Origin: Gracilibacter sp.
Lineage (GTDB): Bacteria > Bacillota > Desulfitobacteriia > Desulfitobacteriales > Syntrophobotulaceae
Length of the DNA: 40,984 nucleotides
NCBI GenBank assembly: GCA_024637055.1
Contig: JAGXFZ010000126.1
Coordinates: 1-40,984, forward strand
Direction: 5' to 3'
Position numbers and translations under genes: made by a program. The notes below the pieces were generated by a model. That model did no database searches. It saw only the letters and a program-made list of their open reading frames with translations, and had not been told where the DNA came from. How positions within the stretch are numbered: the stretch's first letter is position 1; every line of letters begins with the position of its first letter. This document shows, piece by piece, positions 14,909 through 30,837 of this stretch.

Positions 14909-16249
14909 ATGAGTGTAGAGTTAGAAAACAAACCTCCAGTGAGCGGAGGCGGCGGAGGCTGGTCCGAGCTTTGGAAGAAGGAAGACTGGTGGGCGGTATG
15001 GGTAGGAATCATTTTCCTAGCAGGTGCATTGCTCGCTTGGCTCAGTAAACCAGTAATACCTAAAAGATGGGGAAATGATGATATTCCAAGTATAGTTGGA
15101 TCCATCACCTCCAGTATGATCCCCGGAATGATCTTAACAGGCATAATTCTATTAGCGTTTTTTACGCTAGCTATCAGATTTTCTGAGAAAGAAAGCACTT
15201 CCAAATTCATGATCGCGTTTCCTATAATTTTTGGTTTAGCTATAGTTGCAGAACTACTCGGAAACTACGCTCCATTAAGACACTATGGAGTTAACAGTGT
15301 CATTTGGGCTTTGGTTATTGGACTTGTAATTAGTAATACTATTAGAACCCCTAAGGTTTTCCAAGGTGCTGTACGTACAGAACTCTATATTAAAACTGGT
15401 CTCGTTCTTTTGGGAGCCAGCATCCTGTTCGACCGCTTATTAACAATGGGTGTTATGGGTCTTGGAGTTGCCTGGTGTGTTACCCCAATCGTTTTGATCT
15501 CTATGTACTGGTTCTCCCAGAAAGTTCTCAAAATGCATAATGAGAGAGGGTTAGCAATAACTCTTGCAGCTGCAACATCTGTTTGTGGAGTTTCAGCAGC
15601 GATAGCAGCTGGATCAGCAGCTAAGGCTAAGAAAGAAGAAATTTCCTTAGCTATTTCGGTTTCTCTGATCTTTACTGTAATCATGATGGTTGCAATGCCT
15701 GCTCTTGTCAAACTATTTGGCTTAGACCCCGCGGTGGGTGGAGCTTGGCTTGGTGGAACTATTGACGCGACAGGAGCAGTTGTCGCAGCAGGAGCTGTGC
15801 TCGGTCCAGAAGCTATGGAAGTAGCTGCAGTTGTAAAAATGGTTCAAAACATACTCATTGGATTCATCGCTTTCGGTATTGCCATATTCTTCGTAATGCG
15901 TTATGAAGGTAAATCTGCTGGTCAAGCTAATGTTGGCGTGAAAGAAATCTGGATTAGAATGCCTAAGTTTATCATCGGATTCATGGGCGCTTCCATTGTC
16001 TTTACACTACTCATCCCAACAGAAGCTGCTGATAGAGCGATTAGTATCGCTAATGGATGGCGTGGATTCTTGTTTACCCTTGCGTTTATTAGTATAGGTC
16101 TAGAAAGTAACTTTAAGGATATGGCGAAACTTGTTAGTGGCGGAAAACCGCTAACCCTTTATATAGTTGGTCAAACCTTTAACATCTTCCTTACACTGAT
16201 TGCTGCTTACATCTTCTTTAGCGGCAGATTCTTTACCCTTCCATTCTAA
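14909..16249 (+). CDS. YeiH-family (PSE) putative sulfate exporter
   Basis: A 446-residue integral membrane protein. After a glycine-rich N-terminus (SGGGGGW) and an amphipathic Trp-rich stretch come about ten to eleven membrane spans. The family signature regions are GLVLLGASILFDRLLTMG, AAATSVCGVSAAIAAG, WLGGTIDATGAVVAAGAV and FISIGLESNFKDMAKL, typical of the YeiH/UPF0324 'conserved integral membrane protein 698' group. The family is annotated as putative sulfate exporters; direction and substrate are not firmly established. AAGGAGG precedes the ATG. Lying at the head of a sulfite-reduction region, it may move sulfate, sulfite or another sulfur oxyanion (inference). Confidence 0.85.
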   Translation: MSVELENKPPVSGGGGGWSELWKKEDWWAVWVGIIFLAGALLAWLSKPVIPKRWGNDDIPSIVGSITSSMIPGMILTGIILLAFFTLAIRFSEKESTSKFMIAFPIIFGLAIVAELLGNYAPLRHYGVNSVIWALVIGLVISNTIRTPKVFQGAVRTELYIKTGLVLLGASILFDRLLTMGVMGLGVAWCVTPIVLISMYWFSQKVLKMHNERGLAITLAAATSVCGVSAAIAAGSAAKAKKEEISLAISVSLIFTVIMMVAMPALVKLFGLDPAVGGAWLGGTIDATGAVVAAGAVLGPEAMEVAAVVKMVQNILIGFIAFGIAIFFVMRYEGKSAGQANVGVKEIWIRMPKFIIGFMGASIVFTLLIPTEAADRAISIANGWRGFLFTLAFISIGLESNFKDMAKLVSGGKPLTLYIVGQTFNIFLTLIAAYIFFSGRFFTLPF

Positions 16250-16771: not shown

Positions 16772-17890
16772 TTGAAGATAAGAATGATAGGTATTGACTA
16801 TAGTACGGCGATACTTTCCCAACGGGAGATATTTGCTTTCTCTACAGTTCAGGCACAAGAGGCGATGCAAAGTGTTATAGATATCTATGATGTTAAGGGC
16901 TGTGTCATCGTATCTACCTGCAACCGGACAGAAATATATATTTGTGAGGATAACAACAGGCAGACGGATTTAGCTACTGTATTGTGTGGCTTGAAGGAAG
17001 TCTGCCTTGAAAAGTATAAAGATTTACTAACTGCCAGAGAAGGAATAGAAGCTGTACGCCATTTATTTGAAACAGCTTGTGGGCTTAATTCTCAGATTTG
17101 GGGCGAGGATCAGATTCTCACCCAAATTAAGGCCTCTATCGAAGCGGCTAGAAATGTGCAAACGGCAAATGAAGTGATGGAAAAGCTATTCCAGAACGCA
17201 ATAACTTCTGCCAAGAAAATAAAATCAACGGTAAGGCTGACTTCTTATGATCCATCTGTAGCAACAAAAGCACTCGATATCACAAAGTCACAGTACCCTA
17301 GTTTAATCGGACTTAAATGTCTTGTTTTGGGTAACGGAGAAATGAGCAAAATGATGTCTTCCATGCTTGCTGAGTGCGGGGCCCAAGTGACAGTAACTTT
17401 AAGAAAATATAAAGATAAAACAAGTCTAGTTCCTGAAGGGTGTATAGCGGTCAATTATGAGCACCGTCTTGCGGAGATAGAACAAGCAGACTTAATTATA
17501 AGTGCTACCTCCAGTCCTCACTACACCATCAAGCTTGAAGATGTTTCCACTATCTTGGCCGACAGGAAGCAGAGAGTATTCATCGACCTAGCGGTCCCTA
17601 GGGATATCGATCCCCAAATCGTTGAATATGATAACCTTGTCCTGTTCGATATAGAAAGCTTGGGTGGTTTGAAGCGGACTGAGTCTTGTAATAGATCATT
17701 ATTAGCCGCTAAACAAATTATTGATAAATATATTGATAAGTTTATCAAGTGGAACAAAGTAAGAGAGAGTCTGCCATTAATAAGCAATACAGTTAGTGAT
17801 ATATCTGAATCAATAAAGAAGAAGAACCTTCAAGACATTGAATATAGTCTCAAAGTAGAATATAGCTACCAAAAATGGAGCGTGCTATAA
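16772..17890 (+). CDS. hemA: Glutamyl-tRNA reductase, shortened (probable 3' frameshift)
   Basis: Reduces glutamyl-tRNA to glutamate-1-semialdehyde with NADPH, the first step of tetrapyrrole (siroheme, heme, cobamide) synthesis. The TTG start at 16772 follows GGAGGG. The catalytic domain has the nucleophile C50 in VSTCNRTEIY; NADPH domain about 155-305 (LVLGNGEMSKMM, SATSSPHYTI, FIDLAVPRDIDP). It stops at 372 residues, about 40-70 short of usual, within the C-terminal dimerisation domain. At an A5 run (17871-17875) one extra A would continue as KMERAIKDPTTYL and on to a TAA at 17980-17982 (about 403 residues), which looks more like a normal ending. So the gene may be slightly broken, frameshifted in sequencing, or read by slippage. 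Placement before the dsr genes fits siroheme supply. Confidence 0.85.
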   Translation: MKIRMIGIDYSTAILSQREIFAFSTVQAQEAMQSVIDIYDVKGCVIVSTCNRTEIYICEDNNRQTDLATVLCGLKEVCLEKYKDLLTAREGIEAVRHLFETACGLNSQIWGEDQILTQIKASIEAARNVQTANEVMEKLFQNAITSAKKIKSTVRLTSYDPSVATKALDITKSQYPSLIGLKCLVLGNGEMSKMMSSMLAECGAQVTVTLRKYKDKTSLVPEGCIAVNYEHRLAEIEQADLIISATSSPHYTIKLEDVSTILADRKQRVFIDLAVPRDIDPQIVEYDNLVLFDIESLGGLKRTESCNRSLLAAKQIIDKYIDKFIKWNKVRESLPLISNTVSDISESIKKKNLQDIEYSLKVEYSYQKWSVL

Positions 17891-18040: not shown

Positions 18041-18892
18041 TTGGTTCTTTCAATATATGTTATTTTATCGGTCTTATGTTTTATCGGTTTTTCCTCATAT
18101 AAAGCTTGGAAATACGCTACCATGCCTATGCATAGTCGCCTTGATCTTTATCCTGTACCCAAAGAAGCGGGTAGAGCTGAATATGGAGGCTCCTATTATG
18201 AAGAAACGGAATGGTGGGCTAAACCCAGAAAAGTATCTCACCTTGGCGAAATCAAAGATATGTTAATGGAAATGCTTTTCATCAAGAAACTATTCCAAAA
18301 CCAAAGAAAACTTTGGTGGCCGTCTTACTCCTTCCACTTGGGGATTTACTTCTTATTTGCCTGGACTATTCTATTGGTGATCAGTGTAGCGTGGCCGGCA
18401 ACTTTTATTGTATATCTAACTTCTTTTGTCGGTATCGTCGGCTTTATCTTAGCTTTTGTAGGAAATGTAGTCCTGCTCATGCACAGAGTATTTGAACAAG
18501 ATCTGAAAAAGTATACTACTCCCCAAGAGTACTTTAATCTGATCCTAATCCTCGCTGTCCTAGTGACTGGTATTTATGCCTGGAGCGGCAGTATGATATC
18601 TGGACAGGCTGGACAAACGGTTGGACAGTTAATCTCTTTGCAAGCATTAGAAGTTGGACCAGCTCTCACTATCCACTTGGTTTTGCTAGGATTTATGTTT
18701 TTTTACATACCGTTAAGCAAAATGAATCATTACATCGGAAAATACTTCACGTTTCATAAAGTATTGTGGGACAATGACCCAAATCTGCCAGGTAGTAAGG
18801 TGGAACAAGATTTACAGGAAGCTGCAGCTAATCCGCCGAAAACAAAATGGTCTGCTCCTCACATGAATGAAGGGAGAGATTTAAATGCGTAA
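18041..18892 (+). CDS. DsrM-like membrane cytochrome b subunit (first copy)
   Basis: A 283-residue NarI/DsrM-type membrane protein that would oxidise menaquinol and pass electrons via heme b to its DsrK-like partner. TTG start at 18041 behind AGGAGG. One N-terminal span (1-22), a long polar loop (24-92, WW-rich), then four spans (about 97-120, 122-147, 166-183, 209-228). Candidate heme-ligand histidines in spans: H99, H148, H212, H230. It overlaps the next gene by 8 bp. Longer than the second DsrM in this locus (241 residues) and different in its N-terminal loop and C-terminal tail, so a paralogue, not a recent duplicate. Confidence 0.82.
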   Translation: MVLSIYVILSVLCFIGFSSYKAWKYATMPMHSRLDLYPVPKEAGRAEYGGSYYEETEWWAKPRKVSHLGEIKDMLMEMLFIKKLFQNQRKLWWPSYSFHLGIYFLFAWTILLVISVAWPATFIVYLTSFVGIVGFILAFVGNVVLLMHRVFEQDLKKYTTPQEYFNLILILAVLVTGIYAWSGSMISGQAGQTVGQLISLQALEVGPALTIHLVLLGFMFFYIPLSKMNHYIGKYFTFHKVLWDNDPNLPGSKVEQDLQEAAANPPKTKWSAPHMNEGRDLNA

Positions 18893-20501
18893 ATCAGCGG
18901 ATTTAAAACCTAATGATATAAGCAAACCAGTCGACCAACTTATACAAGTTGACTCACTGAAGACTTTGCCTGGTCCTTATAGCAAGGACGGTATGGAACC
19001 GGATTTCACAGAACCAAAAGAAGCCTGGAAGTCAAAATACTGTACTTCACTAGACGGTTTTGTAGGTATAGATACCCTCGTCAGACCATCAAGTCCTGAG
19101 GAAGAAGATGAATTCGTTCGCAAATTTATCAGTGGTCTGGAAAAAGTATTTGCCGACAGTAATAACAATTTCCTCCAACCTGTACAACTCACTATGGATT
19201 ATTGTGCCAAGTGCAATACCTGTTCTGAGGCCTGTCATGTTTTTGAAGCTACGAACCACAACGAACTTTACAGACCTATCTACCGTTCTGAGGTCTTACG
19301 TAAAATTTACAAAAAGCACTTTACAACCAGCGGTAAGCTGCTAGGCAGCGTTGTTGGTGCAGATATAGATGTCAACTGGGAGAGCATTGCTCGTCTTGGG
19401 GAGCTTGCCTATCGCTGTAATCTCTGTCGACGCTGTGCCCAGACTTGTCCGCTCGGTCTGGATAATGCCCTTATGGCACGCGAGATTCGTAAAATATTCA
19501 GCCAAGAGATGGGGATTGCCCCTACTCCGTTGCATACCAAAGGCTCCATGCTCCAGTTACAAACTGGCTCCTCGACAGGAATCAATAAAGCTGCCCTTCT
19601 GGATATGTTGGAATTTATCGAAGAAGATATCGAAGAAAAAACAGGTCGCAAAATTAAAATACCCATGGATAAAAAGGGAGCAGATATCCTCTTAACCCAC
19701 AATGCTGGGGAATTTATGGCTTGGCCTGAAAATCCAGCAGCATTTGCAATCCTTTTTGAGGAAGCGGGTCTGGATTGGACACTAAGTAGTTCAATGATCG
19801 GTTACGACAATGTGAACTATGGTCTATGGTACGACGATAGCCAAGCAAAAAAAGTTGCCTTACAGCAGTTTCAGGCTGCCAAAGAACTGGGGGTCAGACG
19901 TATCATTATCGGAGAATGCGGTCATGCCCATAAAGCAGCAGCAGTAAGCGCCGATCGCATGACATCAGGAGATAACAAAGTGCCAGTGGAGAGCTTCCTC
20001 CCACTATTATGGGAGTTAGTGGAGACCAAGCGTCTGAAGTTTGATCCTGAGAAGAATAACTTCCCAGTAACCCTGCACGACCCTTGTAACTTTGTTCGGC
20101 AGATGGGTATTGTTCAGCCACAAAGAAATATCCTGAAAGCGATTTGTCCTCAATTTAGGGAAATGACTCCGCATGGCGTTAATAATTACTGCTGTGGGGG
20201 CGGAAGCGGCTTTGCTATTATGCAGTCTCAAAACTTTGCAGAATTTCGCAATAAGGTTAGTGCTCGGAAGAAGTTCGAACAAATTATCTCAGCCTTTGGC
20301 GATGAGTTTGAGAATCCGGACATTATCAAATATGTATGTGCTCCCTGTTCTAACTGCAAAGGAACAATTAGAGATATGTTTGAGTTCTATGAAGCTACTG
20401 CTAAGTTTAATGTACACTACGGTGGCTTAGTAGAACTAATGGTCAATGCCCTCGTTAGCCAAAAAGAACCTTTCTTGACGTTCGAGGAAGATGAATTCTA
20501 G
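18885..20501 (+). CDS. DsrK/HdrD-like Fe-S protein (first copy, extended N-terminus)
   Basis: A 538-residue heterodisulfide-reductase-D-like subunit. Two [4Fe-4S] motifs: C107-x2-C110-x2-C113-x3-C117 and C178-x2-C181-x2-C184-x3-C188. A CCG domain binding the catalytic noncubane cluster has C401, C436-C437 (NYCCGGGSG) and C485-x2-C488. Compared with the second DsrK it has about 53 extra N-terminal residues and 47 rather than 34 residues between CC and the final CxxC. It should reduce a disulfide or trisulfide such as DsrC-S3 at the inner membrane face with the DsrM-like partner, but these differences leave room for another disulfide substrate. Forms a tight pair with the upstream gene. Confidence 0.85.
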   Translation: MRKSADLKPNDISKPVDQLIQVDSLKTLPGPYSKDGMEPDFTEPKEAWKSKYCTSLDGFVGIDTLVRPSSPEEEDEFVRKFISGLEKVFADSNNNFLQPVQLTMDYCAKCNTCSEACHVFEATNHNELYRPIYRSEVLRKIYKKHFTTSGKLLGSVVGADIDVNWESIARLGELAYRCNLCRRCAQTCPLGLDNALMAREIRKIFSQEMGIAPTPLHTKGSMLQLQTGSSTGINKAALLDMLEFIEEDIEEKTGRKIKIPMDKKGADILLTHNAGEFMAWPENPAAFAILFEEAGLDWTLSSSMIGYDNVNYGLWYDDSQAKKVALQQFQAAKELGVRRIIIGECGHAHKAAAVSADRMTSGDNKVPVESFLPLLWELVETKRLKFDPEKNNFPVTLHDPCNFVRQMGIVQPQRNILKAICPQFREMTPHGVNNYCCGGGSGFAIMQSQNFAEFRNKVSARKKFEQIISAFGDEFENPDIIKYVCAPCSNCKGTIRDMFEFYEATAKFNVHYGGLVELMVNALVSQKEPFLTFEEDEF

Positions 20502-20548: not shown

Positions 20549-22222
20549 ATGAGGGTAGTAATTATTGGCGGGGTCGCCACCGGCCCGAAGGTGGCAGCTA
20601 GATTGAGAAGGTTGCGACCGGATGCCGACATCACCGTTATTGAACAAGGAGAACTCATTTCTTACGGGAGCTGCGGCTTACCGCTCTACCTCGGAAATCT
20701 TGTACCTGACATGATGGAACTCATGATGACTTCATCGGGCAGCGTTCGTGACCCTGATTATTTTCATCATACAAAACAAGTAAAAGTCCTTAACAATACC
20801 CGGGCAGAAGAGATTGATAGAATAAATAAAACTGTCAAGATACGTAATTTAGTTCACAATCAGCAAGACGCACTGCCTTATGACTATTTAGTTTTAGCAA
20901 CCGGAGGGAGCCCAGCAGTTCCGTCTCTTCCCGGTACAGATTTGCCAAATGTATTCACTTTGCACCATCCCAAAGATGCTCAGGCTTTACGAGAGTCGGT
21001 TCGTAGTAAGAAGTTAAAGCATATCACCATTATCGGTGCTGGCTTAATTGGAATAGAAGCTGCGGATGCATTATTTAGTCCCCGTGTAAAAGTAACCTTG
21101 TGTGAAGCCCAACCTCAGATTTTACCCAAATTATTAGATGCTGATATGGCCGCTCTGGTAGAGAAAGAAGTCCGTAATAGAGGAGTCGAAGTCCTTCTAT
21201 CGTGCCAGGTACGAAGTCTAATAGCAGGAGATAATGGTGCTGTTGCCCTAGTTGAAACGACTGACGGTGTGATAGAGACCGACGCAGTCATCTTGGCTAT
21301 CGGTACACGCCCTACAGTTGAACTCGCTCGTGCTGCCGGGATAGAACTAGGAGTTACCGGAGCGATTAAAGTCAATTCTCATTTACAGACCGAAGATCCA
21401 TCGATTTATGCCGGAGGAGACTGCGTAGAAAATTATGATCTCCTTTCAGGACAGCCTGTTTACTCTCCATTAGCATCTACAGCTAATAAACACGGAAGGA
21501 TTATTGCTGACAATATTTCCGGCAGAGATTCTAAGTTCCCAGGAGTAAACGAGACATCAGTTCTGCAGTGTTTTGAATATAATATTGGTCGGACCGGATT
21601 AGGAGAAGAAGAGGCTCGCAAACATGGTTTTGATGTGAGTAGTGTTATTATTTCCGGTTTTGATAATACCCATTATTATCCGATGCATGAGAAGGTCAAG
21701 CTTAAATTGATTGCAGATAAAAGTTCATGTCGGGTCTTAGGCGCCCAGGTTGTCGGAGCAGGTGAAGCTATCAAGCGTTTAGATGTTTTGGTTACAGCCA
21801 TGAAATATGGAGCTACGCTTGAAGATATTGCAAATTTAGATTTGGGATATGCTCCTCCGTTCTCAACCGCAATTGATTTGGTAGCCCATGCTGCCAATGC
21901 TTTGAGTAATAAAATCAGTGGTTTAATTCACAGCGTCTCAGGAGCTGAGCTATCAACCTACTTAGCGGATTATAAAAATTTATATATTATTGATATCAGG
22001 ACATCCGAAGAAATCCAAAGTACGCCAATCCCTTACAAAAATAAAATAGAAATCCCGCTTAGTGAACTAGCTATAAGGTGGGGAGAACTACCAACCCAGG
22101 CTAAGCTTATCACAGTTTGCGAACTGGGGGTTCGAAGCTACGAAGCTGCTTGCATGCTTCAAGGCAAGGGGTTGTCCGGTGTGTCCTATCTGGAAGGGGG
22201 ACTCTCAATCTTAGATACATAA
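20549..22222 (+). CDS. CoA-disulfide reductase-like flavoprotein fused to rhodanese
   Basis: A 557-residue fusion of the NADH-dependent persulfide/polysulfide reductase (Npsr, CoADR-Rhd) type. FAD loop IIGGVATGPKVAARLRR (5-21); redox cysteine C42 in SYGSCGLPLYLGN, the single-Cys site that binds CoA; NAD loop IIGAGLIGIEAADALF; FAD contact IYAGGDCVENYD. The rhodanese domain (about 460-557) has active loop CELGVR with C524. Known members reduce persulfide, polysulfide or elemental sulfur with NAD(P)H and CoA. Strong AGGAGGTG before the ATG. It lies between the first DsrMK-like pair and ferredoxin-dsrAB on one apparent transcript, suggesting handling of sulfane sulfur formed around sulfite reduction (inference). 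Confidence 0.88.
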   Translation: MRVVIIGGVATGPKVAARLRRLRPDADITVIEQGELISYGSCGLPLYLGNLVPDMMELMMTSSGSVRDPDYFHHTKQVKVLNNTRAEEIDRINKTVKIRNLVHNQQDALPYDYLVLATGGSPAVPSLPGTDLPNVFTLHHPKDAQALRESVRSKKLKHITIIGAGLIGIEAADALFSPRVKVTLCEAQPQILPKLLDADMAALVEKEVRNRGVEVLLSCQVRSLIAGDNGAVALVETTDGVIETDAVILAIGTRPTVELARAAGIELGVTGAIKVNSHLQTEDPSIYAGGDCVENYDLLSGQPVYSPLASTANKHGRIIADNISGRDSKFPGVNETSVLQCFEYNIGRTGLGEEEARKHGFDVSSVIISGFDNTHYYPMHEKVKLKLIADKSSCRVLGAQVVGAGEAIKRLDVLVTAMKYGATLEDIANLDLGYAPPFSTAIDLVAHAANALSNKISGLIHSVSGAELSTYLADYKNLYIIDIRTSEEIQSTPIPYKNKIEIPLSELAIRWGELPTQAKLITVCELGVRSYEAACMLQGKGLSGVSYLEGGLSILDT

Positions 22223-22260
22223 TTTAATATTGAGAAAAGTAATTATTGGGAGGTGATATA

Positions 22261-22449
22261 GTGTTTATTGTTACAATCAATGACGAGGAATGTTCAGGCT
22301 GCGATGCTTGTACAGAAAGCTGCCCAGCTAAAATTCTTAGTTTTGTTGATGGGAAAGCGGTAGTCACCGGAGATGAAAGCGAATGTATGGGATGTGAATC
22401 TTGTATTGTTGTATGCCCAACAGGGGCAATATCCATAATGGAAATTTAA
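22261..22449 (+). CDS. 2[4Fe-4S] ferredoxin
   Basis: A 62-residue bacterial-type ferredoxin. GTG at 22261 is chosen because GGGAGGTG is just before it; the in-frame TTG further out would overlap that site. Two cluster motifs: CSGCDACTESC and CMGCESCIVVCP, each followed by the usual Pro (CP). It sits 31 bp upstream of dsrA, so it is a natural candidate electron donor to the ferredoxin domains of DsrA/DsrB, or an acceptor for the upstream flavoprotein. Confidence 0.92.
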   Translation: MFIVTINDEECSGCDACTESCPAKILSFVDGKAVVTGDESECMGCESCIVVCPTGAISIMEI

Positions 22450-22479: not shown

Positions 22480-23673
22480 ATGACAGAAAAGAAGACCCCG
22501 CAACTAGATGAATTAGAAAAAGGTCAATGGCCAAGCTTTGTAACTGAAATTAAAAAAGCTGCGGCAACAAACGCTGCCTCTGAAGACCTACTTCATCTCT
22601 TAGAAAGATCTTATGAAGACAGAATAGGCCATTGGAAACATGGTGGGATCGTTGGCGTAAGAGGATACGGCGGTGGAGTTATCGGCCGTTATACAGATCT
22701 TCCTGAAGAATACCCCAATCTTGCAGAATTCCATACCATTCGTTTAGCTCAGCCAGCAGGATGGTTCTATGACTCAAAAGCCCTACGTTCCATTTGTGAT
22801 ATCTGGGAAAAACATGGCAGTGGCTTAACCAACTTCCATGGATCAACAGGAGATATCATCATGTTAGGAACCACTACTGATCACATTCAACCAGCTTTTG
22901 ATGAGTTCAGTGAAGCAGGATTTGACCTTGGTGGATCCGGTTCAGACTTAAGATCACCTAGCTGCTGTGTAGGACCAGCTCGTTGTGAATATGCTTGCTA
23001 TGATACTTTAGAAGCTTGTCACAATATTACTAATGAATACCAAGATGAAATCCATCGCCCAATGTGGCCATATAAATTTAAGATTAAATTTTCCGGTTGT
23101 GCCAATGACTGCACAGCATCTATCGCTCGTTCAGACTGTTCTGTAATTGGAACTTGGCGTGATACCATCCAAATCGATCAGGATGCCGTCAAACAATATG
23201 CCGCAGATGGCCTGGATATTCAAGACCGTGTCTGTGATAAATGTCCAACCCGTTGCTTGAAGTTTAATAGTGAAACTAAAGAACTTACCGTCATCGGTGA
23301 AGACTGTACCCGCTGCATGCACTGCATCAATTACATGCCTAAAGCCATCCGCGCTGGCAAAGTTAAAGGAGCTACCATTCTGTTTGGCGGAAAATCCACT
23401 ATTGTTCAATCAGCTTTCATGTCTTGGGTTATCGTTCCTTTCATGAAAATGGAAAGTGAAGATGATTTTGCAGAATTCAAAGACTTAATGGGTCGCGTCT
23501 GGGAATGGTGGGATGAAAACGGTAAAACCCGTGAGCGTATCGGTGAAACTATCTATAGATTAGGTATGGGCAAGTTCTTACGTGAATGTGAGTTGCCACC
23601 TGTACCGCAAATGGTATTCCGTCCTCGTGCTAATCCATATGTATTCTGGCCACAAGACGAAATCATAAAATAA
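22480..23673 (+). CDS. dsrA: Dissimilatory sulfite reductase alpha subunit
   Basis: A 397-residue subunit of DsrAB, which reduces sulfite by four electrons while loading sulfur on DsrC. The siroheme-[4Fe-4S] motif is C163-x5-C169 (CCVGPARCEYAC) and C207-x3-C211 (SGCANDC). An inserted ferredoxin domain follows: C252-x2-C255-x3-C259 and C276-x2-C279-x2-C282. Length is typical for Gram-positive DsrA. AGGAGG site; 27 bp to dsrB. The codon choice here and in dsrB is noticeably more C-ending (CGT, ATC, ACC) than in flanking genes, consistent with high expression. Confidence 0.98.
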   Translation: MTEKKTPQLDELEKGQWPSFVTEIKKAAATNAASEDLLHLLERSYEDRIGHWKHGGIVGVRGYGGGVIGRYTDLPEEYPNLAEFHTIRLAQPAGWFYDSKALRSICDIWEKHGSGLTNFHGSTGDIIMLGTTTDHIQPAFDEFSEAGFDLGGSGSDLRSPSCCVGPARCEYACYDTLEACHNITNEYQDEIHRPMWPYKFKIKFSGCANDCTASIARSDCSVIGTWRDTIQIDQDAVKQYAADGLDIQDRVCDKCPTRCLKFNSETKELTVIGEDCTRCMHCINYMPKAIRAGKVKGATILFGGKSTIVQSAFMSWVIVPFMKMESEDDFAEFKDLMGRVWEWWDENGKTRERIGETIYRLGMGKFLRECELPPVPQMVFRPRANPYVFWPQDEIIK

Positions 23674-23700: not shown

Positions 23701-24759
23701 ATGTCTATACTAGATCAAGGACCTCCAGATTACAAAAAAATGATTCCTCCAATAATTAAGGACAATTACGGCAAATGGATATACCATGAGATTCCTAAAC
23801 CAGGTGTGCTCAAACATGTTTCTGAAACCGGTGACGAACTTTTCAGTGTACGTGTTGGATCGCCAAGATTAATAAGCTTAGATTTTGTGCGTAACCTCTG
23901 CGATCTTGCAGACGCTTACTGTGACGGTTACCTCCGTTTCACTAGCCGTAATAACGTAGAATTTCTTCTATCCGATGCTAGCAAGGTAGAACCATTAATT
24001 GCAGCACTTACCGAAAAAGGCCTCCCAGTCGGTGGTACTGGAGCAAGCCTGAGCAATATCGTTCACACCCAAGGTTGGATTCACTGCCATACACCTGCAA
24101 CAGATGCTTCCGGTATCGTGAAAGCTGTCATGGATGATCTCTTCGAATACTTTGGGTCCATGAAACTACCAGCAAAATTAAGAGTTGGCTTAGCATGTTG
24201 CCTGAATATGTGCGGCGCAGCCCACTGTAGTGACTTGGCTATCGTCGGAGTACACAGAACTGTCCCTCGTATAAATGATGAAAAAATCGCTAAGGGTACA
24301 GAAATCCCTAGCCTAGTTGCCAGTTGCCCTACAGGAGCAATTCGCCCCAATCCTAAAGCTAAGAGTGTAACTATTGTCGACGATAAATGTATGTACTGCG
24401 GAAACTGCTACACCATGTCTCCAGGAATGGAAATTATGGATGGCAAAAATGACGGTTGTGCTATTCTTGTCGGTGGTAAAGTTTCTAACGCCCGTAATGT
24501 TCCTAGCTTCTCCCGTATGGTAATTCCTTTCCTCCCCAACAATCCTCCTCGTTGGCCGGAAGTTACTGACGCAGTTCGCATGATTGTCGAGGTTTGGATT
24601 GCCCATGCTCGTAAAGGTGAACGGATGAGTGAATGGATCGAACGTATTGGTTGGGAAAGATTCTTTACCCTTACCGACATTCCTTTCTCTGACAAGTTAA
24701 TTGATGATTATATCTTCTCAAGAGAAACCTTCCGTACCTCTGCTACATTTAAATACTAA
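23701..24759 (+). CDS. dsrB: Dissimilatory sulfite reductase beta subunit
   Basis: A 352-residue beta subunit, partner of DsrA in the alpha2beta2 enzyme; DsrB carries the catalytically active siroheme. Visible motifs: HCHTPATD (C129), ACCLNMCGAAHC (C166, C167, C171, C176), the ferredoxin-domain cysteines in SCPTGAI and KCMYCGNCYTMSPG. The C-terminal arm (SRETFRTSATFKY) is the usual ending. AGAGGTG ribosome site. Followed 36 bp later by dsrD. Confidence 0.98.
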   Translation: MSILDQGPPDYKKMIPPIIKDNYGKWIYHEIPKPGVLKHVSETGDELFSVRVGSPRLISLDFVRNLCDLADAYCDGYLRFTSRNNVEFLLSDASKVEPLIAALTEKGLPVGGTGASLSNIVHTQGWIHCHTPATDASGIVKAVMDDLFEYFGSMKLPAKLRVGLACCLNMCGAAHCSDLAIVGVHRTVPRINDEKIAKGTEIPSLVASCPTGAIRPNPKAKSVTIVDDKCMYCGNCYTMSPGMEIMDGKNDGCAILVGGKVSNARNVPSFSRMVIPFLPNNPPRWPEVTDAVRMIVEVWIAHARKGERMSEWIERIGWERFFTLTDIPFSDKLIDDYIFSRETFRTSATFKY

Positions 24760-24795
24760 TCAGATAAAAATTAATAAGAAAGGGGATTGAACTCA

Positions 24796-25017
24796 ATGGA
24801 TAAAGGAGCTGCCAACCCCGAAATCAAAGACAAAGTCGTAGCTTATCTTCACACAGTACAAAAGGCAAAGAGTAAAGATATCGCTACAGCCATTGGAGAA
24901 AAGAAATCCGCAGTAGACCTTGCGGTCAAAGAATTAACAGCGGAAGATATCTGTGAATATTTATATATCACCACTACCTATATTTGCATCAAAGGTAAGG
25001 TAGGTGCTCCTGAATGA
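24796..25017 (+). CDS. dsrD: DsrD, winged-helix activator of DsrAB
   Basis: A 73-residue winged-helix protein. The ATG at 24796 fits AAAGGGG 9 bp upstream; an in-frame TTG at 24787 is too close to it. Motifs AANPEIKDKVVAYL, DIATAIGEKKSAVDLAVKEL (recognition-helix-like) and EYLYITTTYICIKGK match DsrD. DsrD is present in reducing-type dsr loci and has been shown in other organisms to raise DsrAB activity. Its presence argues for sulfite reduction, not sulfur oxidation. Its TGA overlaps the dsrM ATG. Confidence 0.96.
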   Translation: MDKGAANPEIKDKVVAYLHTVQKAKSKDIATAIGEKKSAVDLAVKELTAEDICEYLYITTTYICIKGKVGAPE

Positions 25018-25739
25018 GCAGCCTCTTTGGATGGGTTATACCCTACATTGTGGTCCTATTGTTCCTAGGAGGTATGCTCCTCCGCATCATGTCTTGGCTC
25101 AAAATCCCAGTTCCATTTAAACTAACGGTGTTTCCCTGCCCTAAGACTAGGGCAGGAGCCGCCGCAGATTTAGTCACGGAGAGCGTTGGCTTTAAAAGTC
25201 TATGGAGAGGTGGGAAGGGGCTATGGTTTATGTCCTGGCTCTTCCACATATCTCTAGCTTTTATTCTAATAGGCCACTTTTTTGGGATAGGTTTTCTAGG
25301 TCAACAATTCACCTGGATTGGAGCAACTTCTGAACAAAGTTTAGAGCTTTCTGTACTTTTTGGGACGTACGCTGGAGTAGCCTTATCTTTAGGATTATTA
25401 CTCTTAGCCATTCGCCGTATTACTTCTCCTACAATGAAATTTATCTCTTCCTTTGCTGATTATCTAGTATTGGTTTTGTTAATAGGCATTGTCGGAAGTG
25501 GGATGTACATGCGGATGTTTCATGGAGTAACTTACGAGGCTGTTCATGATTACCTTATTGGATTAATCACTTTCCATCCCGTTCCGTTACCTGACAACAT
25601 GGCCTTTATCTTTCACTTTACGTTAGTGCAACTACTTTTGTTATACTTCCCGTATTCTAAATTATTGCACTCTTGCGGGATATTCTTTAGTCGCTGGCTA
25701 ATTGTAAGGCCGCACGAAAGACAGGTGATCATCAAATGA
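25014..25739 (+). CDS. dsrM: DsrM, menaquinol-oxidising cytochrome b subunit (second copy)
   Basis: A 241-residue five-span membrane protein (about 5-25, 72-95, 115-133, 149-167, 196-215). Candidate heme b ligands are H78, H88, H170/H178, H188, H201 and H219. Starts by ATGA overlap with dsrD and is translationally coupled to dsrK (ATGA overlap). Together DsrMK is the minimal membrane complex that reduces the DsrC trisulfide with menaquinol; no dsrJ, dsrO or dsrP gene follows, as is usual in Gram-positive sulfate reducers. Confidence 0.92.
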   Translation: MSSLFGWVIPYIVVLLFLGGMLLRIMSWLKIPVPFKLTVFPCPKTRAGAAADLVTESVGFKSLWRGGKGLWFMSWLFHISLAFILIGHFFGIGFLGQQFTWIGATSEQSLELSVLFGTYAGVALSLGLLLLAIRRITSPTMKFISSFADYLVLVLLIGIVGSGMYMRMFHGVTYEAVHDYLIGLITFHPVPLPDNMAFIFHFTLVQLLLLYFPYSKLLHSCGIFFSRWLIVRPHERQVIIK

Positions 25740-27082
25740 GCGAGCAAGTACGTATTCCATACGTAGCAAGAGAAAAAGAACTAAAAGATTTATATCTACC
25801 TATGGTTGCACCGGAAGATCGTCCTCAGACAGCTCTTGAACTCCTTGGTGAGATGTTAAAGTATAAACGTTCTTTGAAATTATATTTAGATGTATGCACT
25901 CATTGTGGAGCTTGCGCTGAACAGTGTCATTCCTACCTGGGAACGAAGGACCCGTATAATATGCCAGTCGCTCGTGTTGACTTGGTCCGCCGTGTTTACA
26001 AACAAGTATTCGCATCCGGTCCTTCGTTTTTAAGAACTTGGGATGGGGCCAAGGCAATTGACCAGGAAACTATTGACCTATGGTACAAATATTTCCATCA
26101 ATGTAACCAATGTCGTCGTTGTGCCATATTCTGCCCGAAAGGCATCGATACCGCTGAGGTAACGATTGCCATGCGCGAACTCTTAGCTCACCTTGGTATG
26201 CCCAGTAGATTCCATGCTGGTATTGCCAAGAACATGGCCAAGACAGGTAACAATATGGGCAACCCATTGCCGGCCGTTCTGGACGGAATAGAGTTTCTGG
26301 AAGAAGAACTAAAAGAAGAAACAGGACTTGATATTCCGATACCTGTGGATAAAGAAGGCGCAGAAGTGCTATTTAATCCTTCTTCGTCGGATCTCTACGT
26401 CAATACAGATGGATTTATGGCTGTAGCTAAGATTTTCTATAAGGCAGGAGTTTCCTGGACGCTAAGTTCCAAAATCACTGAAACTGCTAACTTTGGACTC
26501 TTCTTCCATGAACCAAGTATGCGCGAACACAGTCGCCTTCTCGTTCAAGCTGGTAAGGAGCTCGGTGTCAAAAGGCTTGTGGCTGGAGAATGTGGCCATG
26601 GATGGAGAACCTGGCGGATGTTTACAGAAACTATCAATGGACCTCTTCCTTTTCCAGTAGTGCACTTATTTGAAGAGGTATTGGGATATCTCCGTGACGG
26701 TAGAATTAAATTTGATAAGTCCATGAATCCGGAAGTAGTCACTTATCATGATCCTTGTAACTATGCTCGAGCTGGAGATTTAATTAATCAGCCGAGAGAA
26801 CTTTTATCTGCTTGTGTCCAAAACTTTGTAGAGATGACCCCAACAAAAGAATTAAGTTTCTGTTGCGGAGGGGGATCGGGAATCCTCATGGACGAAGCAA
26901 TGAAAATCAGGGAAGCTTTAGCACAGCCTAAGGCAGAATGTGTAAGAAGCACCGGAGCAGAAATTCTCTGTGCCCCTTGTGCTATCTGTAAAGCCCAACT
27001 TCCCGATGTATTGGAACATCACAAAGTTGATGTCACAGTTAAAGGATTAAGTGACCTTATGGGTCGGGCTCTAATACTGTAA
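25736..27082 (+). CDS. dsrK: DsrK, HdrD-like catalytic Fe-S subunit (second copy)
   Basis: A 448-residue cytoplasmic-face subunit. Two [4Fe-4S] motifs: C54-x2-C57-x2-C60-x3-C64 and C123-x2-C126-x2-C129-x3-C133. The CCG motif is C341, C376-C377 (FCCGGGSG), C412-x2-C415, i.e. spacings of 34 and 34, which fits the noncubane [4Fe-4S] site of heterodisulfide-type reduction. Partner of the adjacent DsrM; substrate is probably the DsrC trisulfide, dsrC being next but one element downstream. Confidence 0.94.
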   Translation: MSEQVRIPYVAREKELKDLYLPMVAPEDRPQTALELLGEMLKYKRSLKLYLDVCTHCGACAEQCHSYLGTKDPYNMPVARVDLVRRVYKQVFASGPSFLRTWDGAKAIDQETIDLWYKYFHQCNQCRRCAIFCPKGIDTAEVTIAMRELLAHLGMPSRFHAGIAKNMAKTGNNMGNPLPAVLDGIEFLEEELKEETGLDIPIPVDKEGAEVLFNPSSSDLYVNTDGFMAVAKIFYKAGVSWTLSSKITETANFGLFFHEPSMREHSRLLVQAGKELGVKRLVAGECGHGWRTWRMFTETINGPLPFPVVHLFEEVLGYLRDGRIKFDKSMNPEVVTYHDPCNYARAGDLINQPRELLSACVQNFVEMTPTKELSFCCGGGSGILMDEAMKIREALAQPKAECVRSTGAEILCAPCAICKAQLPDVLEHHKVDVTVKGLSDLMGRALIL

Positions 27083-27193: not shown

Positions 27194-27511
27194 ATGGCTG
27201 ATTTAAACGTTAATGGTGTTTTTATTCCGTTAGATGAAGATGGTTTCCTAGAAGATTCTGACTTATGGAACGAAGAGGTTGCCTTAGCTTTAGCACTCAC
27301 GGAAGATGTTGAGGAACTTACCGAAGAACACTGGCATTTGATTAACTACCTGCGTGATTACTATGCAAAATTTGGAGTAGCTCCAATGATTCGTAAGCTA
27401 TGTAAAGAAACTGGTTTCAATCTTAAGAAGATTTATGAACTTTTCCCAGGTGGGCCAGCTAAAGGTGCTTGTAAAGTTGCTGGTCTGATGAAACCAACCG
27501 GTTGTGTATAA
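27194..27511 (+). CDS. dsrC: DsrC sulfur carrier
   Basis: A 105-residue small sulfur-carrier protein. The flexible C-terminal arm ends GACKVAGLMKPTGCV with both conserved cysteines, C93 and the penultimate C104, so it can form the trisulfide with sulfite-derived sulfur on DsrAB; it is a true DsrC rather than a one-Cys TusE homologue. The core has WNEEVALALA and HWHLINYLRDYY. AAGGAGG site. Its TAA overlaps the ATG of the next gene by one base. Confidence 0.97.
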   Translation: MADLNVNGVFIPLDEDGFLEDSDLWNEEVALALALTEDVEELTEEHWHLINYLRDYYAKFGVAPMIRKLCKETGFNLKKIYELFPGGPAKGACKVAGLMKPTGCV

Positions 27512-28926
27512 TGGTCAACCGACTTGTAATCGCCGCCCCTCAAGGGCGTTGCGGTAAAACAACGGTAACCCTAGGACTCCTGCGCGCTTTTAGCCGCAGG
27601 GGTCTTAAGGTTCAGCCTTTTAAGAAAGGGCCAGATTACATTGATCCCAGCTGGCTTACAGCTGCTGCAGGGATTCCCTGCCGTAATCTTGACTCTTACT
27701 TTATGGAGCCCGAACAAATTTGCAAGTCTGTTTCCTTAGCAGCAGAGAACTGTGATTTAAGTATTATTGAAGGTGCTATGGGATTATTTGACGGACTTGA
27801 TTTAGAAGGTAGTAGCTCAACCGCAGAAATTGCCAAGATAACCAAGACTCCCGTTATTTTAGTACTTGATGCTACCCGCATGACACGTAGTGCGGCAGCT
27901 ATTGTTTTAGGATGTCAACATTTTGACCCTCAGATTCAAATCTGTGGGGTTATTTTAAATAAAGTTGCAAGACCACGTCACGAAAAAATGTTACGTGAGG
28001 CTATCGAACATTATTGTAAGGTACCAGTTCTAGGGGCCATACCTAAAGACAGTGGATTAAGTATTCCGGATCGACATCTTGGGCTTGTCACCCATATTGA
28101 AAGCGATGACAGTGATAGTCAGTTAGATTATCTAGCTGATGTAGTGAGTTCTAATGTCGACTTAGAACAGGTTTATTCTCTTGCTACGCAGGCACCTCCA
28201 CTGCCACATTGGCTTTCTAGATCCACTAATATATCCAGACAGTACTCACAACCAGTTAGAATCGGCATTATCCGAGATAAGGTGTTTAGCTTTTATTACC
28301 CTGAGAATTTAACTGCTTTAATAGACCTAGGGGCCCAACTTGTAGACATCAATAGCTTAACAGACTATCGTCTACCACCTGACCTTGACGCTCTTTATAT
28401 AGGTGGCGGGTTTCCGGAAGTATTTGCTGTTGAACTTGAAAGAAATATCGGTCTTCATTACTCTATCAGAAAAGCAGTAGAATCTTGCATGCCGGTTTAC
28501 GCCGAATGTGCAGGTCTCATGTTTTTAGGAAGAACACTCAGGGTTGGGGAAAAAACTTATGCTATGGCGGGAGCTTTACCGCTAGATACGATCATGGAAC
28601 CCAAGCCACAAGGACATGGGTATACATCATTTGAAACTTTACCTGGAAACCCGTGGTTCACCTCCGGCCTAAGCGTTAAGGGACATGAGTTTCATAATTC
28701 TCGAATAACCAACTTGGACCCGATGGTCAAGTTTGCATATAAAGTCCAGCGTGGTCAGGGTATAGATGGAATACATGATGGGATTATATATAAAGGAGTC
28801 TTGGCATCCTATAATCACCTTCATGCCTTAGGAACGCCTCAATGGGCAGAGAAATTAGTTGAATTAGCAACATCTTATAGTTTATTTCAAAATTCTATGA
28901 CAGTTCAAGCTCAAAACAATATATAA
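27511..28926 (+). CDS. cbiA: Cobyrinate a,c-diamide synthase family (CbiA/DsrN), siroheme amidase candidate
   Basis: A 471-residue glutamine-dependent amidotransferase. ATG at 27511 is chosen for the TAATG coupling to dsrC. N-terminal ATPase domain: P-loop APQGRCGKTT (about 8-17), FKKGPDYIDPSWL, SIIEGAMGLFDGL. C-terminal class I glutaminase: ALYIGGGFPEVFA and nucleophile C333 in YAECAGLMFLG, with PQGHGYTSFE and KGHEFHNSR. CbiA amidates cobyrinate; the dsr-linked form (DsrN) is thought to amidate siroheme to the amide found in DsrAB. Direct coupling to dsrC favours the DsrN role here, though a cobamide role is not excluded. Confidence 0.92.
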   Translation: MVNRLVIAAPQGRCGKTTVTLGLLRAFSRRGLKVQPFKKGPDYIDPSWLTAAAGIPCRNLDSYFMEPEQICKSVSLAAENCDLSIIEGAMGLFDGLDLEGSSSTAEIAKITKTPVILVLDATRMTRSAAAIVLGCQHFDPQIQICGVILNKVARPRHEKMLREAIEHYCKVPVLGAIPKDSGLSIPDRHLGLVTHIESDDSDSQLDYLADVVSSNVDLEQVYSLATQAPPLPHWLSRSTNISRQYSQPVRIGIIRDKVFSFYYPENLTALIDLGAQLVDINSLTDYRLPPDLDALYIGGGFPEVFAVELERNIGLHYSIRKAVESCMPVYAECAGLMFLGRTLRVGEKTYAMAGALPLDTIMEPKPQGHGYTSFETLPGNPWFTSGLSVKGHEFHNSRITNLDPMVKFAYKVQRGQGIDGIHDGIIYKGVLASYNHLHALGTPQWAEKLVELATSYSLFQNSMTVQAQNNI

Positions 28927-29014: not shown

Positions 29015-29953
29015 ATGTGCGATCAGCAGTTTCTAGTATTTAAAGAAGTTGCCGAGACAAGAAATATTACCCTTGCAGCTAAAAGGTTACACATGAGCCA
29101 ACCAAGCATCAGTATTCAAATCCAGAATCTAGAAAATCAGTATGGTGCGAAGTTTTTCGAACGAACAAATAAAGGCGTAACCTTGACCCAAGCGGGTAAG
29201 ATATTTTATCAGCATATTTGCCAGGTCATCCAGCTTATGAAAGAAGCCGGGGAAAAAATTGCAGACCTGACTGAGGATAAACGTGGGCTCATTCATGTTG
29301 GAGCTACTTTTACCATTGGAGAATATGTTTTACCACTTATCTTAGGTTATCTGAACAGAATACGACCGGACATCGATTTTAAAGTTAATATCGCCAACAC
29401 GGAAACCATTGCCCAAGATGTCTTAGAGAAGCGCATTCACATCGGTTTAGTTGAAGGTCCTGTTCCTCAAAATCGTGAATTAGTTGTAGAAAATTTTTGG
29501 CAAGACGAACTTGTCGTAGTGGTGCCGTATCACCATCCCTGGAATAAGCGATCGAGTGTTACCATTGCAGAGTTGACAGTGGAACGGATGATTACGCGTG
29601 AGGTGGGCTCAGGAACTCGCAAAGTTATGGAAATAGCTTTAGAAGAGCGGGGCTTGGATCCTCAGCAGCTTAATATAACAATGGAACTAGGTAGTACTCA
29701 GGCTATCAAACAAGTAGTATGTTCTGGGCTGGGAATAACCATCATTTCTGCCCTGACCGTCGTCCAAGAGTGTAACCAGCAGATTTTAAAAGCACTTAAG
29801 ATACAGGATTGCCCTGTCTACCGCCCTTTAAATATTCTCACGCATGCTCAAACCCTCCAAACCAAAGATGAGCGTTATTTTATTAATTTTTTGCATAGCA
29901 GGGAACAGCTTGCTGAGATACTTAAATCTAAGATCCACGACATTCTGTGCTAA
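29015..29953 (+). CDS. LysR-family transcriptional regulator
   Basis: A 312-residue LTTR. N-terminal winged HTH about 1-62 (NITLAAKRLHMSQPSISIQI, then FERTNKGVTLTQAGKIF); effector domain about 90-300 with periplasmic-binding-protein fold (IHVGATFTIGEYVLP, VVVPYHHPW, GSGTRKVMEIALEE, GLGITIISALTV). The sequence style is that of the CysL/YeiE/CbbR-like group. GGGGGT precedes the ATG; TATAAT at 28968-28973 may be the -10. It lies between cbiA/dsrN and a nitrilase-family gene and could control the dsr operon, but its effector is unknown. Confidence 0.93.
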   Translation: MCDQQFLVFKEVAETRNITLAAKRLHMSQPSISIQIQNLENQYGAKFFERTNKGVTLTQAGKIFYQHICQVIQLMKEAGEKIADLTEDKRGLIHVGATFTIGEYVLPLILGYLNRIRPDIDFKVNIANTETIAQDVLEKRIHIGLVEGPVPQNRELVVENFWQDELVVVVPYHHPWNKRSSVTIAELTVERMITREVGSGTRKVMEIALEERGLDPQQLNITMELGSTQAIKQVVCSGLGITIISALTVVQECNQQILKALKIQDCPVYRPLNILTHAQTLQTKDERYFINFLHSREQLAEILKSKIHDILC

Positions 29954-29976
29954 AAGGCATATAGGAAGGCTAGCTT

Positions 29977-30837
29977 ATGGATACAAATCATATAATCGGA
30001 CTTGTGCAGATGGAGTCCACTGTAAGCAATACCCAAGGTAATCTGGAAAAAATACTTAGCATTGCAGAAGATGCCGTTGAACTTGGAGTAGATATCCTGT
30101 GTTTTCCGGAAATGGCCTTACATGGTTATAAGCCAAGTGAAGCATATAATCTTGCTGAACGACTTACGGGAACCAGTGTGCAAAAAATTTCAGAATGTGC
30201 TGTTAAGCTAGGCATTACCTTGCTAGTTGGAATGGCTGAAAAAGAAATAGGTGTTGAAAAACCCTATTTAACTCATTTTGTAGCCTTTGCAGACGGGGGA
30301 ATTGGTGCTTACCGAAAAACTCATCTTGGCCAAAGTGAAGAAGAATACTTCTCACCGGGGCAAGAGTTTCCAATATTTGAATCACATGGAATACGCTTTG
30401 GTATTGGGCTCTGCTGGGATTGGCATTTTCCGGAGGTAGCAACCATTTATTCTCTTAAAGGTGCCGAAGTATTATTTGCTCCCCATGCTTCGCCTACAGT
30501 GATTGGCGACTGGAAAGAAATATGGTTACGTTATCTTAGTGCCAGAGCCTACGATAACTCAGTTTACCTTGGAGCTTTAGGTAAAAATGGTCTTGGTCAG
30601 GAATTCCAAGGCGGTGCTCTTGTACTAAACCCCAAAGGAGAAATAATTGCCGAAAGTTTTAGACAGCAAGAAGGTATCCTTACTTGCGAACTTTCTGCTG
30701 AACATATCAACATCTTGCGTGGACGTCAGCGGAGAACTATGAAAGAGATTTTCTTCCTGGCCCACAGAAGGAAAGAGCTTTATCGGGAGATTATCGAGCT
30801 AGATGTAAACTCAGGTGACCATCCAAAAGATGATTAG
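29977..30837 (+). CDS. Nitrilase-superfamily carbon-nitrogen hydrolase
   Basis: A 286-residue amidase with the full catalytic triad: E45 (CFPEMALHGY), K114 (GAYRKTHLG) and C146 (GIGLCWDWHFPE). Family members include N-carbamoylputrescine amidase, omega-amidase and deaminated-glutathione amidase; substrate not determined. AGGAAGG site 23 bp after the LysR stop, so likely cotranscribed. At the end of a dsr locus it might act on a sulfur-metabolism amide, but nothing in the sequence proves that. Confidence 0.9.
   Translation: MDTNHIIGLVQMESTVSNTQGNLEKILSIAEDAVELGVDILCFPEMALHGYKPSEAYNLAERLTGTSVQKISECAVKLGITLLVGMAEKEIGVEKPYLTHFVAFADGGIGAYRKTHLGQSEEEYFSPGQEFPIFESHGIRFGIGLCWDWHFPEVATIYSLKGAEVLFAPHASPTVIGDWKEIWLRYLSARAYDNSVYLGALGKNGLGQEFQGGALVLNPKGEIIAESFRQQEGILTCELSAEHINILRGRQRRTMKEIFFLAHRRKELYREIIELDVNSGDHPKDD

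Follow-up and report, generated by a model that had tools for sequence, protein, structure and literature searches.

The NADH-dependent persulfide reductase of Archaeoglobus fulgidus (AfNpsr or NoxA-3, PDB entry 6PFZ) acts on persulfides and polysulfide but not on CoA disulfide, and its role has been described as not yet identified (PMC7969121). In fusion enzymes of this kind, sulfane sulfur is thought to pass from the rhodanese cysteine to CoA and then to an FAD-linked cysteine (PMC9405070, PMC7969121). A loop at residues 60-66 lies over the CoA pocket of AfNpsr, and its authors saw no such loop in the enzymes from S. loihica and B. anthracis (PMC7969121). Another NAD(P)H flavoprotein, DsrL, is the only known electron donor of reductive DsrAB, for which the donor is otherwise unknown (PMC10591310). 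Paralogous dsrM2 and dsrK2 genes upstream of dsrAB have already been noted in the literature (PMC6018796), as has a DsrMK clade lacking JOP (PMC10504309); the accessible text of neither paper mentions a persulfide reductase beside such DsrMK pairs.

The sequence studied here, hereafter the window, is a stretch of 40,984 nucleotides from an incomplete draft genome (85% complete) of a Gracilibacter sp. Its open reading frames and matches to family models reveal a cluster on the + strand in the order dsrM2-dsrK2-Npsr-Fd-dsrA-dsrB-dsrD?-dsrM1-dsrK1-dsrC-dsrN, composed as follows.

18041..18892, + strand: dsrM2, second copy of a DsrM-like membrane subunit (Nitrate_red_gam, PF02665; weak match to the DsrM model NF038037, far under its cut-off; kept before dsrK2 in relatives)
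18885..20501, + strand: dsrK2, DsrK-like CCG/4Fe-4S subunit (NF045796 DsrK, 410 bits, cut-off 400)
20549..22222, + strand: Npsr, predicted NADH-dependent persulfide reductase, an FAD/NAD flavoprotein-rhodanese fusion (from domains, cysteines, loop, clade and model)
22261..22449, + strand: 2[4Fe-4S] ferredoxin of 62 aa with GTG start, which goes with dsrA (two CxxCxxCxxxCP motifs; start signal)
22480..23673, + strand: dsrA, dissimilatory sulfite reductase alpha (TIGR02064, 548 bits, cut-off 393)
23701..24759, + strand: dsrB, dissimilatory sulfite reductase beta (TIGR02066, over cut-off)
24787..25017, + strand: DsrD-like small protein, named from position and length only, as family-model searches gave no confirming match (kept after dsrB in relatives)
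25014..25739, + strand: dsrM1, first copy of a DsrM-like membrane subunit (best match NF038037 DsrM, under cut-off; PF02665)
25736..27082, + strand: dsrK1, first copy of a DsrK-like subunit (NF045796 DsrK, 397 bits, cut-off 400)
27194..27511, + strand: DsrC, with both C-terminal cysteines present (KGACKVAGLMKPTGCV) (PF04358; TIGR03342 over cut-off)
27502..28926, + strand: dsrN/CbiA-type cobyrinic acid a,c-diamide synthase homolog (TIGR00379 over cut-off)

The gaps between dsrK2 and Npsr (47 nt), Npsr and the ferredoxin gene (38 nt), and the latter and dsrA (30 nt) each hold a good Shine-Dalgarno sequence, and no terminator-like sites were found in these three gaps on the + strand. The likely start of the ferredoxin is GTG 22261, behind the ribosome-binding site GGGAGGTG; the TTG at 22246 chosen by the ORF caller lies upstream of that site and was rejected. 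Two distinct DsrMK pairs (18041-20501 and 25014-27082) occur in this one cluster without dsrJOP, the upstream pair being of the same kind as the published M2K2 paralogs and the JOP-less clade, while close kin (67-85%) of the downstream pair were seen only in genomes G001, G021, G070 and G071. Upstream of dsrM2K2 lies hemA, coding for glutamyl-tRNA reductase (16772-17890). Siroheme supply may be the reason why hemA-like genes also occur next to this pair in Gordonibacter and Eggerthella. A gene for a putative transporter of the YeiH family (14909-16249) is another repeated neighbour of dsr clusters, seen in genomes of the Desulfitobacterium-like group, in Gordonibacter/Eggerthella and at locus L057. 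Downstream of dsrN, positions 29015-30837 hold a LysR regulator and a carbon-nitrogen hydrolase, two kinds of gene that form large neighbour clusters (35 and 30 members) across the surveyed loci.

The Npsr reading frame codes for 557 amino acids with no internal stops, comprising the Pfam domains Pyr_redox_2 (1-300), Pyr_redox_dim (342-443) and Rhodanese (467-552). According to the original prediction, C42 and the rhodanese C524 are both intact; they are indeed present, within SYGSCGLP and VCELGVRS respectively, and both columns are invariant in an alignment of 25 relatives. The best PDB match is 6PFZ, over residues 1-553, and the homology to AfNpsr extends over the whole length, with 41-42% identity in the structural alignment. 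An AlphaFold2 model (pLDDT 90.9) superimposes on 6PFZ with a TM-score of 0.92-0.93, against 0.88-0.90 for the CoADR-RHD of B. anthracis (3ICR), the Npsr of S. loihica (3NTA) and the CoAPR of E. faecalis (8A56). These three share the domain fusion and both cysteines with the window protein, but score lower than 6PFZ in sequence as well as structure, and 3NTA and 3ICR are without the loop and outside the loop clade. AfNpsr has the same C42, its second cysteine in the rhodanese domain (C519), the loop over the CoA pocket and an acidic residue at the NADH-selecting position, all as in the window protein. Activity, however, has been measured for AfNpsr only, and unlike the A. fulgidus gene the one in the window is part of a dsr operon, by dsrMK2.

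The loop reads TSSGSVR in the window protein (residues 61-67) and TTYGAVR in AfNpsr (60-66). The pattern LxxTxxGxxR marks the loop clade, with W at the glycine-side position in a few distant rows, while generic CoADR, of which the window genome has a paralog on contig C47, does not show it. As the window protein and its clade carry it, the loop is not peculiar to archaea. In trees made by quick searches without bootstrap, 59 other loop-bearing rows join AfNpsr in a single 60-row clade (SH-aLRT 99), within which all dsr-linked copies make up a single clade of 35 rows (SH-aLRT 99); loop-type Npsr was apparently recruited once into the dsr clusters of Firmicutes. The earlier designation as a persulfide-type enzyme thus agrees with the best PDB match, the diagnostic loop and the supported clade with AfNpsr, and judged from its sequence the window protein is an Npsr with the loop, of the kind known from Archaeoglobus fulgidus, its catalysis being predicted. 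A generic CoA-disulfide reductase label was rejected, given the AfNpsr loop and scores well below the curated cut-offs of the NCBIfam equivalogs TIGR03385 (420.5 vs 578.8) and PRK09564 (393.2 vs 458).

In a gene-neighbourhood survey, with genes called simply as longest ORFs, the linkage to dsr genes proposed in the original prediction is conserved across relatives. The order K2-Npsr-Fd-dsrA is also found in the window's own genus, in Paradesulfitobacterium, in Syntrophomonas and in several other genera of the order. This Npsr-Fd-dsrA arrangement is not due to chance, and recurs in many other genomes. Counting all dsr-linked copies, at least three arrangements occur over many families: dsrMK2-Npsr-Fd-dsrAB, dsrC-Npsr-dsrN and dsrJOP-...-Npsr. 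Npsr is located between dsrC and dsrN in L214, L218, L220, L223 and L224, with dsrC on one side and dsrK-type genes, then JOP, on the other in L221, immediately upstream of dsrC in L212, and behind dsrJOP, with or without M2K2, in L213 and L210. The dsrM2/dsrK2 pair, which the original prediction omitted, is a more faithful neighbour of the flavoprotein than the ferredoxin: dsrK2 is the most constant genetic neighbour of the Npsr clade, adjoining it within and outside dsr loci and in most of the dsr-linked ones, whereas dsrC adjoins it in six others. As all arrangements fall in the one 35-row clade, a single origin of the linkage is probable, with its retention through rearrangements; this is evidence against passive synteny. 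In a phylum sample of 398 genomes, loop-type Npsr is present in 33, and 32 of these 33 have dsrA, which occurs in 55 of the 398 overall (Fisher p 3e-31, a value that overstates the evidence since the genomes are related). It is missing in 23 of the 55 dsrA-bearing genomes; one dsrA-bearing genome, G193, has a fragment match only, with the loop region not scorable. No report of a linkage between Npsr or CoADR and dsr genes was found in the searchable literature, to which most subscription journals do not belong; the enzyme family is already known, and its dsr linkage appears to be undescribed within that literature, although such absence is no proof.

Sulfate reducers of other families have a sister Npsr outside dsr clusters, so that linkage to dsr seems dispensable for Npsr function there. 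In several sulfate-reducing families, this sister clade follows elongation factor P and is flanked by a CD1247-like gene and spoIIIAA (loci by spoIIIAA: L216, L222, L226, L228, L232, L234, L235, L237, L244). Other off-dsr copies (L147, L175, L176, L177, L179; also L227 and L219) stand by a cluster of NifX-like, MinD/Mrp-type ATPase and DUF134 genes, some of these clusters with a DsrE-like gene as well; all these names come from reading the sequences.

The genus Desulfosporosinus (g12) shows a different pattern. At most of its loci, the space between dsrK2 and the ferredoxin gene holds Npsr pieces with stops, frameshifts or deletions, or no trace at all, while dsrK2, the ferredoxin gene and dsrAB are intact. 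An intact Npsr at the dsr locus remains in three of these genomes (G044, G046 and G054), one of which is clearly AprA-positive. In several, an intact copy is found at another place, with a further dsrK2-like gene next to it in nearly all cases (L147, L175-L177 and L179; L180 is an exception). Genomes of g19 carry Npsr-M2-K2 at a distance from dsrA (L181, L182). In one Desulfosporosinus lineage (L012, 4175-4609, and L157) the relic is an open rhodanese-like frame of 144 aa with its Cys kept. I considered a stand-alone rhodanese replacing Npsr here, but with stops, frameshifts and partial pieces in its neighbours, decay is more probable than a new function.

The window genome (85% complete) has a PhsA thiosulfate reductase over cut-off, while no Sat was found in it and no AprA or AprB over cut-off; G001, of the same genus and 95% complete, gives the same picture. 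The host is a probable sulfite-breathing bacterium, and the presence of PhsA with no Sat or AprAB found fits a sulfite/thiosulfate respirer in need of sulfane sulfur disposal. However, PhsA itself releases sulfide from sulfane sulfur, and for that reason thiosulfate may not be the source. In the 398-genome sample, aprA is present in none of 13 genomes with dsr-linked Npsr versus 12 of 19 with unlinked copies. On the dsrAB tree this contrast amounts to two independent Apr gains, in both of which most loci have also lost the linked copy, and is not significant; I therefore take it as suggestive of, and not as proof for, a role in sulfite reducers.

The most likely role of Npsr, at roughly an even chance of being right, is NADH-driven reduction of sulfane sulfur beside sulfite reduction. 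The rhodanese C524 would take sulfane sulfur from polysulfide, a low-molecular-weight persulfide or thiosulfate, bound CoA could ferry it as CoA-S-SH to C42, and the FAD reduced by NADH would drive the release of H2S. Npsr would in this way consume sulfane sulfur arising beside sulfite reduction, for instance when thiosulfate is respired; the two sulfurs of the acceptor could then both be turned into sulfide, without a build-up of reactive sulfane sulfur. Its genetic partner is the DsrMK2/DsrC side of the Dsr system. Among the options of the original prediction, the removal of sulfane sulfur is a better fit than a feed into sulfite reduction. The intact dsr-locus copies in three Desulfosporosinus genomes, the clearly AprA-positive one included, count against this reading, as do the sister Npsr copies that sulfate reducers of other families keep away from dsr clusters.

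Alternatively, Npsr could serve a general defence against reactive sulfur, detoxifying persulfides formed at high sulfide, with the dsr operon providing co-expression only and no step in energy metabolism. The related Enterococcus CoAPR is a sulfide-stress enzyme (PMC9405070), loop-type Npsr is also found outside dsr clusters, e.g. by spoIIIAA, and the gene is dispensable in many Desulfosporosinus. I nevertheless consider this explanation possible but unlikely, as sulfate reducers make equal sulfide, yet the dsr copy is lost in most Desulfosporosinus, and loop-type Npsr is wholly missing from 3 of the 15 genomes with aprA in the phylum sample.

A direct role with DsrC is also conceivable: Npsr with NADH would reduce the DsrC persulfide or trisulfide, or a CoA persulfide derived from it, parallel to or in support of DsrMK. 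Its adjacency to dsrK2 or, at six loci, dsrC and the two C-terminal cysteines of the window DsrC are in line with this, and an NADH route to DsrC, by FlxABCD-HdrABC, has already been proposed (PMC4759654). However, every Dsr user makes DsrC trisulfide, and still 23 of the 55 dsrA-bearing genomes lack loop-type Npsr; AfNpsr, moreover, has a CoA pocket that is mostly shut and fails to reduce cystine or the disulfides of CoA and glutathione (PMC7969121), which makes a protein substrate doubtful. I consider this role rather improbable. A bolder form, in which Npsr would be a second, NADH-driven exit for DsrC-bound sulfur, reducing DsrC persulfide/trisulfide or derived CoA persulfide in the cytoplasm and bypassing or adjusting the quinol-driven DsrMK step, is a speculation that I regard as quite improbable.

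In the route of the original prediction, the flavoprotein would pass electrons from NADH to the adjoining ferredoxin and on to DsrAB; the pair would then be a split analogue of DsrL. The gene order flavoprotein-ferredoxin-dsrA is as this route would have it, and DsrL, which serves DsrAB, resembles the window Npsr in being a flavoprotein that uses NAD(P)H and has its gene among dsr genes, with 2[4Fe-4S] centres involved (PMC7596348); a donor to DsrAB is also wanting apart from DsrL. However, a DsrL chain carries a 2[4Fe-4S] ferredoxin domain at its N- and at its C-terminus and lacks a rhodanese domain (PMC7596348), whereas the window protein, a member of the CoADR/Npsr branch, is without either of these Fe-S domains. 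Homology to DsrL was rejected, Fe-S domains being absent from the protein in Pfam. Among 106 dsrA loci with enough upstream sequence (about nine genomes, shared by two collections, being counted twice), a ferredoxin gene directly precedes dsrA in 71 and Npsr lies upstream in 19. Most loci thus have ferredoxin-dsrA without Npsr, those of Gordonibacter and Eggerthella among them, and in Desulfosporosinus it stays intact while Npsr is mostly deleted or broken. Conversely, the usual neighbour of intact Npsr of the same clade away from dsrA is a dsrK2-like gene, not a ferredoxin gene. The two genes assort independently, against their being one unit; therefore, Npsr belongs with DsrMK2/DsrC, and DsrA is the partner of the ferredoxin. 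Ferredoxin is not a known acceptor for the two-electron cysteine/FAD chemistry of the Npsr family. These distributions do not support the proposed route, and I consider it improbable; the ferredoxin is instead a separate module with DsrAB, and a candidate electron carrier to it.

That Npsr is a mere bystander, carried in the operon by shared ancestry, is very improbable indeed: the linked genes form one clade and the linkage may have arisen just once, but at least three arrangements over many families hold Npsr inside dsr clusters, and its ready decay in Desulfosporosinus probably means that intact copies elsewhere are under selection.

The loop-type Npsr clade tied to dsrMK2 and dsrC provides a testable genetic context for AfNpsr-type enzymes and hints at their role, with Desulfosporosinus offering natural Npsr-loss variants for comparison. 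Likewise, the separate ferredoxin tied to dsrA gives a testable genetic context for the question of the electron donor to DsrAB. If an NADH-driven exit for DsrC-bound sulfur were true, some sulfite reducers could split their electron flow between membrane and cytoplasm.
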